Source: an uncultured Bacteroidales bacterium (lineage in GTDB: Bacteria; Bacteroidota; Bacteroidia; Bacteroidales; WCHB1-69). Taken from it: a DNA stretch of 64,000 nucleotides. Location: positions 1 through 64,000 of the forward strand of contig CAJOFD010000009.1 in the NCBI GenBank assembly GCA_905233585.1, read 5' to 3'. Each line of letters starts with the position of its first letter. Positions within the stretch are counted from its first letter, which is position 1. The position numbers and the translations under genes are program-made. Below, piece by piece: positions 32,207 to 39,110 of the stretch. The notes beneath the pieces were generated by a model that saw only the letters and a list, made by a program, of their open reading frames with translations, was not told the DNA's origin and ran no database searches.

Positions 32207-33109
32207 ATGGCAAGTAAAGTAAGAGTTTATGGTAAGGCACAGAATAGAACTGTGTTGGGTATTTTCAACGCGTATCTTGTAATGTATCCACATGCTACAT
32301 TAGAAGATTTTAAGAAAGCATTTCCAAAAGAGTTAAACCCCGATTCCGGTTGGAAGGTTAATGTACAAACATTGGAAGAATGTGACACAGAAAACGAGAA
32401 AAAGTTCTTCTTTACAGACGAAGAGGATGTGATTAAATTGCAAGACGGTACAAAGATGGTACTTTGCAAAATGTGGACAAAGCCAAGTTTTGAGCGTTTA
32501 GTCAATCATGCAAAACAATACGATATTGAAGTTGCAGAATTTACTGCTGCTGAAAAAGGTTTCGGTAAAAAGGGTGGATGGAGACTTGAATATTTAAATG
32601 GTTACGTTCCGCCTAAACCTGAAAAATCCAAAACCGGTTTGTATATTGCTTGTGCTGCCATTGTGTTTGTCGCAATTTTGACTTTCTTGTTGGCACGCAG
32701 TTGCAACAAAGAAACGCAAGTGGTGGAAAAAATAGTAACCGTTGTAGATACCGTTTATGTGCAACAGATTGAGGAAATGGAAAAGAATTTCAATGCGGCC
32801 GAATTTGAAAAAGGCAAAACGGATTTGAGCGATGCTTCTAAATTCGTGTTGCACGATTTGGCAAAATTAATGGAAAAACAACAATCTATAAAATTGAAAA
32901 TAGTAGGGCATACTTCTGCCGAAGGCGATGACGCTTTCAATCAAAAATTGTCGGAAAACAGGGCTAAAGCCGCTGTGGATTTTTGGGTTTCACAAGGTAT
33001 TGCACAAGACCGTCTGCAATGGGAAGGCAAAGGCAGCACAGAACTCAAAGATGCTGAAAATCCTGAATCAAATGTAAATAGAAGAACGGAATTTGTTGTA
33101 ATTGAATAA
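32207..33109 (+). CDS. Inner-membrane-anchored OmpA-domain protein with unknown N-terminal cytosolic domain
   Basis: The 300-residue protein has no signal peptide. Residues 1-135 form a soluble domain I do not recognise (KVRVYGKAQNRTVLGIFNAYL ... MWTKPSFERLVNHAKQYDI). A single transmembrane helix follows at about 144-163 (LYIACAAIVFVAILTFLLA) and an OmpA-like peptidoglycan-binding domain at about 195-300 (IVGHTSAEGDDAFNQKLSENRA, NRRTEFVV). In the OmpA consensus GHTD the Asp is Ser here; the second ligand Arg (ENRA) is kept. The topology puts domain one in the cytoplasm and the OmpA domain in the periplasm, bridging membrane and cell wall. It heads the island operon. Confidence 0.8.
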   Translation: MASKVRVYGKAQNRTVLGIFNAYLVMYPHATLEDFKKAFPKELNPDSGWKVNVQTLEECDTENEKKFFFTDEEDVIKLQDGTKMVLCKMWTKPSFERLVNHAKQYDIEVAEFTAAEKGFGKKGGWRLEYLNGYVPPKPEKSKTGLYIACAAIVFVAILTFLLARSCNKETQVVEKIVTVVDTVYVQQIEEMEKNFNAAEFEKGKTDLSDASKFVLHDLAKLMEKQQSIKLKIVGHTSAEGDDAFNQKLSENRAKAAVDFWVSQGIAQDRLQWEGKGSTELKDAENPESNVNRRTEFVVIE

Positions 33110-35041: not shown

Positions 35042-35791
35042 ATGGCAGAATTTAATATAGACGGTCGCATGCGTGTGGATTCCCTGCAGGCACAATTCAA
35101 AGAGGCATTCGGAGGAACTCTCCGTGTTTATTATCATCATCACTTTGCAGAAGCATCTGCCCGTTTGTCAGAAATTAGAAGTGAAAATGCACCTGCTACT
35201 GGTGAATTAAAAGTCAATGGAAATATGCAGGTTGGCACTTTTGAGGAAAAAATGATGGAACAATTTGGTATAGAGGTGCAAGTTGCTGATGCCAACAACG
35301 AAGTTTTGATTGAAAACGGGGCAACCTTACGAAATGCGGCCAATGCGAAAGCAAAGGCAGCATATCAACAACAAGACTATTCTCGAGAATATTGGGTTGA
35401 AACATCTTGTGAACAAAATGTGGTTTTGTCAGAACATGTGATAGACTTGTTGAATGAATGTACAGGTAAGAAATATGAACCTGTATTCAGACAAGTATAT
35501 ATCGGGATAAAATTTGATGACAAACCCTGCAATTTTATAACATTAACACCGCAGAAACGGGAATTGCTTCTTTCAATAAGTGTTGCGGAAAGTGCCAAAC
35601 ATCAAGAAATTTTTGACAAGTATTTTGATGGGGATGTTAAATATAATAAAGGTGTTTATCAATTGAAAATCAATACTGAAGATACCGAAAAGAAAGGTGG
35701 TTTTTTCAAAAAATTATTGGGCAAAGCGGCAAGCAATATAGATCAACTCAAACCGATATTATTACAAGCGGAAAAAGAATATAGAAAATAA
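35042..35791 (+). CDS. Two-lobed 'DGRMKV' domain protein with extra C-terminal domain (paralogue 1)
   Basis: Residues 1-100 form a domain made of two similar halves: FNIDGRMRVDSLQAQFKEAFG..LRVY and LKVNGNMQVGTFEEKMMEQFGIEVQVA. The same arrangement occurs in the genes at 35828 and 36444. Here it is extended by about 150 residues (residues 110-249) with no recognised motif, including YIGIKFDDKPCNFITLTPQKRELLLSI and a basic stretch KKGGFFKKLLGKAAS. No signal peptide or membrane segment. I do not recognise the family. The shared upstream leader indicates tandem duplication. Confidence 0.65.
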   Translation: MAEFNIDGRMRVDSLQAQFKEAFGGTLRVYYHHHFAEASARLSEIRSENAPATGELKVNGNMQVGTFEEKMMEQFGIEVQVADANNEVLIENGATLRNAANAKAKAAYQQQDYSREYWVETSCEQNVVLSEHVIDLLNECTGKKYEPVFRQVYIGIKFDDKPCNFITLTPQKRELLLSISVAESAKHQEIFDKYFDGDVKYNKGVYQLKINTEDTEKKGGFFKKLLGKAASNIDQLKPILLQAEKEYRK

Positions 35792-35827: not shown

Positions 35828-36376
35828 ATGGCAACAACAAAGAAACCAGCCGTTAAGAAATCCGCAGCTAAACCTGCAGCCAGGAAAACCACAACAGTTG
35901 CAAAGACAGCAACTTCGACAAAGAAAACTGCAGCGAAGCCTGCGGCTAAATCTGTAGCAAAGAAAACAACTACAGTGAAGACGACTGTTGAATTGTCGGT
36001 AACTGGAAACAAGAAGGTGGAAACTTTGATGAAAGAATTTACAAAGAAATTTCCATATCTTCGTTTGCGTATTTATTCAGGAGAAGCCAAAAAAGTTTCG
36101 GGCTCATTGACTCCATATAGGGTTGACATATCTAAAACTCTAGCATCAGTACGCGATAAAAGTGCAAAAGGTGGAGATATATCCATTAGCGGCAATAAGA
36201 AAATCAAGACCTTGGAAAAAGAATTTGATACCGTATTCGGTCTGTATGTACAAGTATGCTACACTGCAAAAGACGGACATCGTTATTATACCAGCGGTAC
36301 TGCTGACGAGATGACCCTCGCCGCCTTCAATAGGAAGTGCGAAGCCGATGGCTGCAAAAAAGATGAATGGAAGTAA
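35828..36376 (+). CDS. Histone-like Lys/Ala tail fused to the two-lobed domain (paralogue 2)
   Basis: In the 182-residue protein, residues 1-55 are a low-complexity Lys/Ala/Thr/Pro tail (KKPAVKKSAAKPAARKTTTVAK...) like those of eukaryotic H1 and bacterial H1-like proteins. Residues 56-165 carry the two lobes: LSVTGNKKVETLMKEFTKKFPYLRLRIY and ISISGNKKIKTLEKEFDTVFGLYVQV. A short Lys/Cys-containing end follows. The fusion suggests that this paralogue binds nucleic acid or another polyanion. That is inference from composition only. Confidence 0.65.
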   Translation: MATTKKPAVKKSAAKPAARKTTTVAKTATSTKKTAAKPAAKSVAKKTTTVKTTVELSVTGNKKVETLMKEFTKKFPYLRLRIYSGEAKKVSGSLTPYRVDISKTLASVRDKSAKGGDISISGNKKIKTLEKEFDTVFGLYVQVCYTAKDGHRYYTSGTADEMTLAAFNRKCEADGCKKDEWK

Positions 36377-36443: not shown

Positions 36444-36758
36444 ATGGCAGAATTTAACATTGACGGAAGAATGAAGGTAAAAACCTTGAAATCCAAGTTC
36501 AAAGAAGCGTTTGGTGCATCTTTGCGTGTTTACATGAATGTATCAAGCAAAGGTCGTATGGCGGATGAGGAAGCAACATTGGCAAGCATTCGTGCTGAAG
36601 GTGCCAAAGGTGGCGAACTTGCTGTAAAAGGCAACATGAAAGTCGGCAATTTTGAAAACAAAATAGCTGAAATGTATGGTATTGGTGTACAGGTAGCCAA
36701 TGCAGATGACTCCAAACTTGCAGACAATGAGGCAACCCTCATTCAAGCCGGAAAGTAA
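36444..36758 (+). CDS. Minimal two-lobed 'DGRMKV' domain protein (paralogue 3)
   Basis: This 104-residue protein consists of the two lobes alone: FNIDGRMKVKTLKSKFKEAFGASLRVY, linker with ATLASIRAEGAKGGE, then LAVKGNMKVGNFENKIAEMYGIGVQVA and a short end with EATLIQAG. It is the simplest copy and defines the domain borders for the other two. No catalytic residues stand out. The soluble small size suggests a binding or signalling module. Family not recognised. Confidence 0.7.
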   Translation: MAEFNIDGRMKVKTLKSKFKEAFGASLRVYMNVSSKGRMADEEATLASIRAEGAKGGELAVKGNMKVGNFENKIAEMYGIGVQVANADDSKLADNEATLIQAGK

Positions 36759-37083: not shown

Positions 37084-37326
37084 ATGAGCAAAGAGTATTA
37101 TCGTAAGAAAATTATTGATTTGCGGGCGAGTCTGCAAAAAGAAAAAGATGCCAAAAAACGAGACAACGAACATTATGCAAGCCTGATAAAGGGAGCGTCA
37201 ACGCCATCGTTAAAGGCCTCGTATAGAAAATCAAAAATTGACTATGCCGCTAGACACGACCGTAACATCGAGTCGCTAAAACGACAGATAGAAAGTGCCA
37301 AAGAATCGCTGAAAAGAGAAAAATAA
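37084..37326 (+). CDS. Small basic coiled-coil protein
   Basis: The 80-residue protein (MSKEYYRKKIIDLRASLQKEKDAKK...) consists almost entirely of charged helix with a break at KGASTPSLKASYRKSK. Heptad-like spacing of L/I residues at both ends suggests a helical hairpin. No signal peptide. Family not recognised. It starts the second half of the island run, 45 bases before the voltage-sensor channel gene, so it may be a channel partner. Confidence 0.55.
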   Translation: MSKEYYRKKIIDLRASLQKEKDAKKRDNEHYASLIKGASTPSLKASYRKSKIDYAARHDRNIESLKRQIESAKESLKREK

Positions 37327-37370: not shown

Positions 37371-39110
37371 ATGAGTAGAATCGCGAGTTTTAAACGTGAA
37401 CTTTCACGTGTTTTTGATGACAACCTGCACACCAAACAATGGCACAATTATGTGGATTATACCATTATTGGATTGATTATAATCAGTACTTTGGAAGTGT
37501 TCATCTCCACTTTCGCAGGGGTAGAACAACGTTTCGGCAAAATACTGATATTTATTGATATTTTTACTGTCATTATTTTTACAATTGAAGTTTCTCTCCG
37601 CATTTGGTGTGCTGACCTGATTGACGACAAATACAAAGGTTTTCTCGGAAGGATACGCTATTGTTGCAGTTTCTATGGATTAATAGATATTCTGTCAACA
37701 TATCCTTTTTATTTGAGTTTCTTATTTCCTTTTCCCTATACTGCCCTCAAAGTTTTGCGAATAGCCCGTTTGTTGAGAGTCTTTCGCTATATGCATTCAT
37801 TCCGTTTGTTGGCAGAGGCTTTTAAGTCTAAAAAGAATGAATTGTGGGTTTCTGTTCAGTTTTTGGCGATTGTAACAATCATATTGTCGCTTATCTTGTT
37901 TTTTGTAGAACACAAGGCACAGCCTGAAACTTATGCAAACGGTTGGGATTCTGTTGCATGGGCTTTTCTTCAATATGTTGGCGATCCGGGCGGATTTGCC
38001 GACAATCCGCCTATTACTTCTATAGGACAAATTATAGCCGTATTGGTGGGGATACTTGGAATAGCGATATTTGCTGTGCCTGCAGGTCTTATCGGATCCG
38101 GATTTACAGAAGTTATGGAAAAAGAACAAAAAGAGGAGAAGCGTCAAAATGATATAGATAAGATAAACGCAATTTTCCGGTACGTACAATGTCGTTACAC
38201 AAAATATTTACTGGTTCCCAAATATATGTCAATAACAGACATACAGGCACAACAGGGTATAAGCCAACCCAATATTATCGAAGCCGTTTCCGCTTCTGAT
38301 TTTTTGCGTTTGCGTAATATCGCCACCACTCGTCCAGTGGAAGAAAAACCAGCAGATAAACTTGTTGTAGAATGTTTTCCTAAAAACAGACCGTATGGCT
38401 GCTGTATCAATAGGGGTTCAAAGGTTACAATTGTTTCCACTTCCAGTTGCAGTGAGGCTGTAATCGGTAATTTTTCGTATTATCTTGCCATGATTGGAGG
38501 TTTTAATTATGTAAGTAAAGAAATTGAGTTTGATAGCAAATATCCTATAACATATTATAATATCAACGATAGGAATGCTTGTCCCAATTTGCCTCTTTTT
38601 CTTAATGATATAGATAGTCTTGCAAAAACCGAAGATAGTTGGGTTGTTTTTCTACTTTCGGCCAGTGGAGGTCAAGAACCTGTATATCCAACGCAGTTTC
38701 ACTATATAATAGGTGCGCAAAAAGGTGATGAAACTTATAATGACCCCAATATAACAATAAAAGATGTTGCCGTATTTGATGCGATGTACAATGAATTGAC
38801 AGAAACAATACAATCTCAATTCGGGTTAAATTCAGACAGACACAAATATTATGGTTCTTCCCCCAGAAACATAAGCCGCCATATCTGTCAAGGAAGAAAA
38901 ATCAATGCTTTTACCATAAGGATTGCATGGAGCGTAACTTGTTGGGATTATCGCAATACATTAATTTCCAAAACTATGGCAGATATATTCAACAAGCATT
39001 TTGAACCTGAAGTGCAGAAAGAATATTCATCGGAATTGACCATTCGCAAACCTAAAATGGACTATGGTTACACATTTTATTCCGACCTGATTGAGAATGA
39101 AAAAAGTTAA
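37371..39110 (+). CDS. Voltage-sensor ion channel (Kv-like) with non-canonical selectivity filter and large C-terminal domain
   Basis: In the 579-residue protein, six transmembrane helices lie in residues 28-245. S4 at about 127-145 reads LKVLRIARLLRVFRYMHSF with a basic residue at every third position. The pore helix WDSVAWAFLQ leads to YVGDPGGF (202-209) where K+ channels have TVGYGD. S6 GILGIAIFAVPAGLIGSGF is of the bacterial Kv type with the AVPAG hinge. The remaining 325 residues are cytosolic and carry no domain I can name. Ion selectivity cannot be predicted because the K+ signature is missing. The stop overlaps the peptidase start (TAATG), so the two products are probably coupled. Confidence 0.8.
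   Translation: MSRIASFKRELSRVFDDNLHTKQWHNYVDYTIIGLIIISTLEVFISTFAGVEQRFGKILIFIDIFTVIIFTIEVSLRIWCADLIDDKYKGFLGRIRYCCSFYGLIDILSTYPFYLSFLFPFPYTALKVLRIARLLRVFRYMHSFRLLAEAFKSKKNELWVSVQFLAIVTIILSLILFFVEHKAQPETYANGWDSVAWAFLQYVGDPGGFADNPPITSIGQIIAVLVGILGIAIFAVPAGLIGSGFTEVMEKEQKEEKRQNDIDKINAIFRYVQCRYTKYLLVPKYMSITDIQAQQGISQPNIIEAVSASDFLRLRNIATTRPVEEKPADKLVVECFPKNRPYGCCINRGSKVTIVSTSSCSEAVIGNFSYYLAMIGGFNYVSKEIEFDSKYPITYYNINDRNACPNLPLFLNDIDSLAKTEDSWVVFLLSASGGQEPVYPTQFHYIIGAQKGDETYNDPNITIKDVAVFDAMYNELTETIQSQFGLNSDRHKYYGSSPRNISRHICQGRKINAFTIRIAWSVTCWDYRNTLISKTMADIFNKHFEPEVQKEYSSELTIRKPKMDYGYTFYSDLIENEKS

Follow-up and report, generated by a model that had tools for sequence, protein, structure and literature searches.

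On the forward strand of the window (the whole 64,000-nucleotide stretch of DNA that was analysed), a 579-residue ion channel is encoded among small repeat proteins, a peptidase and a second channel (Table 1). The first-pass annotation took this gene for a Kv-like channel in which YVGDPGGF stands in the place of TVGYGD, and the translation bears this out. Pfam Ion_trans (PF00520) matches residues 25–252 (E 5.9e-19), the top PDB matches are KCNQ2-5 (KCNQ3/2/5) followed by Kv4 and Kv1/2, and a Foldseek search with the full channel model likewise returned KCNQ and Kv4 (E 6.7e-10 for KCNQ/Kv). The channel belongs to the Ion_trans superfamily and is of the six-transmembrane (6TM) Kv/KCNQ type. A reverse-strand reading of the same interval was rejected for its many stops.

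Table 1. Features of the channel gene and of the genes around it; positions are those of the window.
Feature	Position	Strand	Remarks
Further 'AEFN' repeat proteins	35042-35791, 35828-36376		same island
'AEFN' two-repeat small protein	36444..36758	+	rare in the order, no Pfam family
80-aa charged coiled-coil-like protein	37084..37326	+	lies 44 nt ahead of the channel; many relatives' loci have a member of this family upstream
Channel gene, 579 aa	37371..39110	+	voltage sensor, GDPG-filter pore and C-terminal domain (predicted phosphorylase/hydrolase-like)
Voltage-sensing domain S1-S4, residues 27-138	37449..37784	+	near-invariant alignment columns, model helices
Pore helix, residues 191-204	37941..37982	+	AlphaFold secondary structure, moderate confidence only
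Filter YVGDPGGF, residues 202-209	37974..37997	+	family-wide invariance of D205-P206-G207 (37983-37991)
S6, residues 217-268	38019..38174	+	KCNQ-like FAVPAGLIGSGF gate region; PDB matches, alignment, model
C-terminal cytosolic domain, residues 262-572	38154..39086	+	without Pfam/NCBIfam match; predicted phosphorylase/hydrolase-like fold
Short M42/M20-like zinc peptidase, 245 aa	39110..39847	+	start shares 1 nt with the stop codon of the channel
Second 6TM channel, BacNav/Cav-like, 274 aa	39853..40677	+	filter TVEGWYE; adjoins the GDPG channel in 4 loci

The channel shares with KCNQ/Kv and bacterial Kv channels the 6TM fold, an S4 arginine at every third residue and the charge-transfer residues, and with KCNQ an S6 of the FAxPAGxxGSGF type. 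S4 had been described as well charged, and R130, R133, R136 and R139 are indeed present; together with F70 and E73 of S2 and D106 of S3, they are at least 90% conserved among the aligned relatives. We equate F70, E73 and D106 with the Kv charge-transfer centre. Among the aligned relatives the S4 and charge-transfer residues are missing only in L046, L047 and L048, which have no voltage sensor, keep the pore and the C-terminal domain, and carry a CIQDPG or SIQDPG filter. Because these three drop only the sensor, the pore plus the C-terminal domain can be regarded as the conserved core of the protein. Their reading frames (L046:4791-6272, L048:4791-6272 and L047:4629-6275) start with a lipobox-like signal sequence, which, taken literally, would reverse the orientation of the pore in the membrane.

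Unlike KCNQ and Kv channels, the protein has xGDPGGF for TVGYGD, two extra residues between the pore-helix Trp and the post-filter Pro, and a new C-terminal domain. Residues 194–220 of the translated ORF read SVAWAFLQYVGDPGGFADNPPITSIGQ, and the Kv pattern WWAVVTLTTVGYGDxxPxT is replaced by WAFLQYVGDPGGFADNPPIT, two residues longer. A scan of GTDB contigs gave 39 loci; relatives of the channel's kind (39–95% identity) are present in 38, in Bacteroidales assemblies that come mostly from rumen and gut. D205, P206 and G207 are invariant in 31/31 aligned relatives, as are W197, F199, P237 and G239. DPG occurs in all of the approximately 50 non-identical frames bearing the same C-terminal domain (raw count 54, which includes a few partial refetched copies), and TVG[YF]G occurs in none, so that the K+ signature, reported as absent from the channel, is absent from every domain-bearing relative as well. 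In the raw set of 54, the residue before the filter Asp is G in 49, Q in 3 and K in 2; at the position after G207, G, N, K, E and Q all occur. Ordinary Kv relatives from the order, picked up by these searches too, have without exception TVGYGD and a segment shorter by two residues, and TVGYGD is also the filter of the window genome's second Kv (G000:C29), located on another contig.

Comparison of the channel with its 95%-identical relative L014 gave a dN of 0.029 and a dS of 0.438 (dN/dS 0.066), and dN/dS is 0.10 over the filter region, residues 190–218. Because DPG is invariant among the relatives and the gene is under purifying selection, the filter is neither an error nor a product of decay, and chance can be set aside on the same grounds. 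The first-pass annotation had feared homologues with TVGYGD at this place, or a sequencing error in the filter; neither was found among the approximately 50 domain-bearing frames, and the alignment makes the GDPGGF-type filter, conserved at DPG, a clade-wide feature. A DNA pattern for GDPG, run across 295 genomes, proved far too short and returned chance matches only.

Two variants of the filter deserve mention. The tandem paralogues L029:8223-9923 and L049:7488-9188, each adjoining a GDPG copy, have a YIKDPG filter, with Lys before the invariant Asp, and so provide a natural filter-mutant pair within one genome. A remote homologue from another class of the phylum (L054:607-2328) keeps the voltage sensor, the pore and the C-terminal domain, and its filter reads GVLTGSTPQGFEPVT (TGSTPQGF), a third non-K+ filter and the only full-length exception to DPG. 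In a tree built without the filter columns, the ordinary Kv rows plus L054 are split from the GDPG rows by a branch with 98/99 support; a single GDPG clade is not rejected but not proven either (AU p 0.37; long branches weaken the tree).

Judged by its sequence, the channel lies outside the K+-selective Kv class as defined by the TVG[YF]G signature, and since a non-K+ filter defines the whole clade, the proposal that its ion selectivity may be altered is well motivated. The filter is predicted with low confidence in the monomer AlphaFold model (pLDDT ~58), so selectivity is not readable from that model. In a survey of eukaryotic Kv/CNBD channels, the metazoan CNG channels, with a TIGE filter, are the only clade-level exception to TVGYG (PMC7576140). 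Our channels resemble them in the clade-wide loss of TVGYG, the acidic filter residue and a putative cytosolic ligand domain, but they have DPG rather than GE-TPPP, are bacterial, have a C-terminal domain of unrelated fold, and have no cyclic-nucleotide-binding domain: no CNBD profile matched the channel. With CavMr and BacNav (TLEGWVD/TLESW) they share a bacterial 6TM architecture and an acidic filter, but alignment of the GDPG channel with the TVEGWYE channel next to it shows no TxExW filter in the former, whose pore and S6 are of the Kv type.

The earlier description of an approximately 325-residue cytosolic domain of no recognised type also held up. The modelled S6 helix reaches residue 268 and the folded domain covers residues ~262–572, for a cytosolic part of ~310–325 residues, and the domain had no match in Pfam, in NCBIfam, or in a PDB profile search with its alignment. 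Modelled alone (AlphaFold, 31 sequences), it is predicted with a pLDDT of 90.6 and a pTM of 0.91. Foldseek searches with this model returned carboxypeptidase T (E 1.8e-5), Atu2144 (which we take to be N-formylglutamate-amidohydrolase-like), the Amidase_3 enzymes CwlV and Rv3717, and MTA/AdoHcy nucleosidases, with E values of 1.8e-5 to 1e-3 and modest TM-scores of 0.3–0.55; a viral library gave the same kinds of match. Following the established classification, we assume that these enzymes share a phosphorylase/hydrolase-like fold. Because the TM-scores are modest, we hold the assignment at the level of the fold: the model suggests a phosphorylase/hydrolase-like domain, amidase/exopeptidase-like in character. 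What residues 262–572 would have in common with the M14 carboxypeptidase T, Amidase_3, Atu2144 and MTA nucleosidase is this predicted fold; they differ from all of these in the lack of a sequence-profile match, in having a single invariant His, and in their fusion to a channel.

That residue, His444, is the sole invariant His of the domain and the only His column above 60% (the next ones reach 16–18/31); therefore the two-His zinc site of the M14, M20/M28 or Amidase_3 type is not conserved. Because many other polar residues are invariant besides His444 (the full set being N339, Y342, R348, S350, T353, E384, D413, H444, D465 and N512), the domain likely contains a binding or active pocket. An hhalign comparison with the C15 and M42-like peptidase families described below found no similarity, which excludes the domain as a recent copy of either neighbouring peptidase. 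No relative bearing the domain was found in viral contigs, phages or plasmids. One weak profile match, L066, looked KilA-N-like by eye and was taken as chance.

A peptidase gene on the same strand lies within 100 nt of the channel in 21/39 loci: a C15 (pyroglutamyl) peptidase in 12 and a short M42-like peptidase in 10, L027 having both. The remaining 18/39 have no peptidase immediately adjacent. The M42/M20-like peptidase scores under the curated Pfam cut-off; its relatives have invariant H59, D61, D93/D94, E119/E120, D149 and H216 (peptidase alignment numbering), and we take the H, D, E, D, H columns to be metal ligands from what is known of the family. Full-length M42-like relatives were found only beside the GDPG channel family. 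In a sample of 198 genomes of the order, one encodes a full-length short M42-like protein, and that is the window's own, beside the channel; other matches in these genomes were weak, partial and to larger proteins, probably ordinary peptidases. Pfam identifies one member of the C15 group as such (E 7.6e-71), and most members have the Cys and His motifs. Independent genomes bear out the pairing: C15 is present in 6 of the 10 channel-bearing genomes of the order, in one copy each, on the same contig and within ~10 kb, and in 3/198 of the sampled genomes, two of the three being channel-bearing. Because the window genome has the M42-like protein and no C15 was found in it, the two unrelated exopeptidases seem to replace each other in the same partner role. 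Gene coupling by itself says nothing on whether the peptidase works on a ligand of the channel; that it may clear or make such a ligand is our proposal.

The second channel of the window has a filter, TVEGWYE, that is also found in neighbouring channels of L014, L020 and L025 and is close to the TLEGWVD of CavMr, a Ca2+ channel native to prokaryotes in which filter position 4 is a glycine (PMC7041947). A 98-residue membrane protein is encoded next after it. The AEFN proteins occur in 8/198 genomes of the order; the three best are channel-bearing, with the matches on the channel contigs. Elsewhere, AEFN repeats are fused to OmpA or KAP NTPase domains (L029:359-1687, L051:2567-4153), and an OmpA-domain protein of the window (32207-33106), grouped by similarity with the AEFN proteins, has a weak resemblance to ZorB/MotB (E 1.2e-5). 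Some channel loci hold an OmpA-domain protein, a KAP NTPase fusion, or GIY-YIG or TerB-like genes. A lipoprotein of ~440 residues that carries a GTQSCNGRIP motif and belongs to no Pfam family lies near the channel in L036 (8235-9593) and 17 other loci. The C-terminal domain itself was found in 13/393 genomes of the order (two weak or fragmentary matches counted) and 2/297 of the phylum, and given this patchy distribution we regard it as part of an accessory island.

The reading that we favour, to which we give a probability of roughly 40%, is that of a voltage-sensing channel for cations other than K+, gated by a small peptide-like ligand that binds a retired hydrolase domain and is cleared by the neighbouring peptidase. 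It builds on the architecture, on the way the filter is conserved, on the predicted fold, on the finding that no two-His site is conserved and on the coupling of the genes, and it is conjectural as to conduction, selectivity, ligand identity and gating. Four 6TM subunits of Kv/KCNQ-type descent would form a tetramer in which the K+ filter has been replaced, clade-wide, by [IV]-[G/Q/K]-D-P-G, placing four Asp205 residues as a ring near the pore axis. Such a ring would most likely pass cations without selecting for K+, with Ca2+ or Na+ as first candidates. The C-terminal domain, of a predicted amidase/exopeptidase-type fold that would have lost a two-His zinc site, would now bind a ligand in the cytosol and gate the pore; the candidate ligand is a small compound, peptide-like or N-acyl/pyroglutamyl, and the adjacent peptidase, C15 or short M42-like, may degrade or produce it. 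Voltage and ligand would then act jointly on the S6 gate. The protein would thus operate as a voltage-sensing channel modulated by a ligand, much as CNG or TRPM2 do, while falling into neither group: it has no CNBD, Nudix domain, TIGE or TxExW. A ligand-gated pore has indirect support, because the predicted amidase/exopeptidase-like fold lacks the two-His site and dedicated peptidases are coupled to the gene.

The likeliest of the alternatives, which we nevertheless consider unlikely, is that the C-terminal domain is catalytically active, as a hydrolase or nucleosidase whose active site is unusual or uses no zinc, the channel opening on binding or turnover and the peptidase processing the product. 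The invariant polar set exceeds the needs of a bare scaffold, and every Foldseek neighbour is an enzyme, the MTA/AdoHcy nucleosidases, which use no metal, among them; set against these points are the lack of a family profile match, of a conserved two-His metal site and of a known substrate. Precedent for such a chanzyme comes from TRPM2, in which an enzyme-derived C-terminal domain, NUDT9-H, is the ligand sensor (PMC11479946). Our channel is like TRPM2 in the covalent fusion of a channel to a C-terminal enzyme-like domain, for which a sensor role is presumed here; it differs in its channel lineage, in its predicted fold, phosphorylase/hydrolase-like rather than Nudix, in being bacterial, and in having a peptidase in trans. 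Less probable still is a voltage-gated non-K+ channel whose C-terminal domain is there for assembly or anchoring only, with the peptidases belonging to an unrelated function of the island. The voltage sensor is complete, and the Cav-like TVEGWYE channel in the same cluster hints that ion flux may be a shared theme, but this explanation sits poorly with the strong invariance within the domain, with the finding that both peptidases occur almost only where the channel does, and with L046–L048, which drop the sensor and keep the pore and the domain.

A non-conducting or modulatory subunit, be it a silent partner of an ordinary Kv or a pure voltage or ligand sensor, would be expected to lose TVGYG, and the same genome does encode a canonical Kv. 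That Kv sits on a different contig, however, and purifying selection acts strongly on the filter, pore helix and S6, where three residues never vary, when a dead pore would have no need of one fixed tripeptide; we rank this explanation lower again. The last candidate is that the channel belongs to an accessory system, for stress or against viruses, that has so far gone unrecognised, and that as its effector it depolarises the cell once a signal is bound by the sensor domain; to this we give the least credence, regarding it as improbable. The patchy spread of the domain would fit, and so would the contents of the loci: AEFN repeat proteins, themselves rare, nuclease-like genes and a KAP NTPase fusion. 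Against it, PADLOC gave no match to the channel and only the weak MotB/ZorB-like match in the OmpA-domain protein, the domain was not found in viral or phage relatives, and the peptidase partner sets the locus apart from the known defence operons.

What we describe is a real and conserved clade of channels, marked by its new filter, by a putative sensor domain that is also new and by dedicated peptidase partners, its function being deduced; it is apparently undescribed. Our literature searches found neither the GDPG filter nor a pyroglutamyl peptidase paired with an ion channel. In its most complete form our proposal is a new bacterial signalling module, namely a peptide-gated, voltage-modulated channel for Ca2+ or other non-K+ cations with a new filter chemistry, an Asp-Pro-Gly ring, a retired amidase/exopeptidase as sensor and a ligand-clearing peptidase, carried on a rare island sometimes together with a Cav-like channel; as a whole this is doubtful, and we hold it more tentatively than the channel reading within it. 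Few ion-channel motifs are as conserved as the TVG[YF]G filter, and a fixed acidic Pro-Gly filter on a Kv scaffold throughout a bacterial clade amounts to a natural experiment in turning a K+ pore into something else. The subunit is a compact single chain, paralogues exist that have G, Q or K at a single filter position, the one ahead of DPG, and yet another filter is found in a remote cousin. The C-terminal domain and its dedicated peptidases, for their part, would be a first pointer to channels gated by peptides in bacteria of the gut and rumen.
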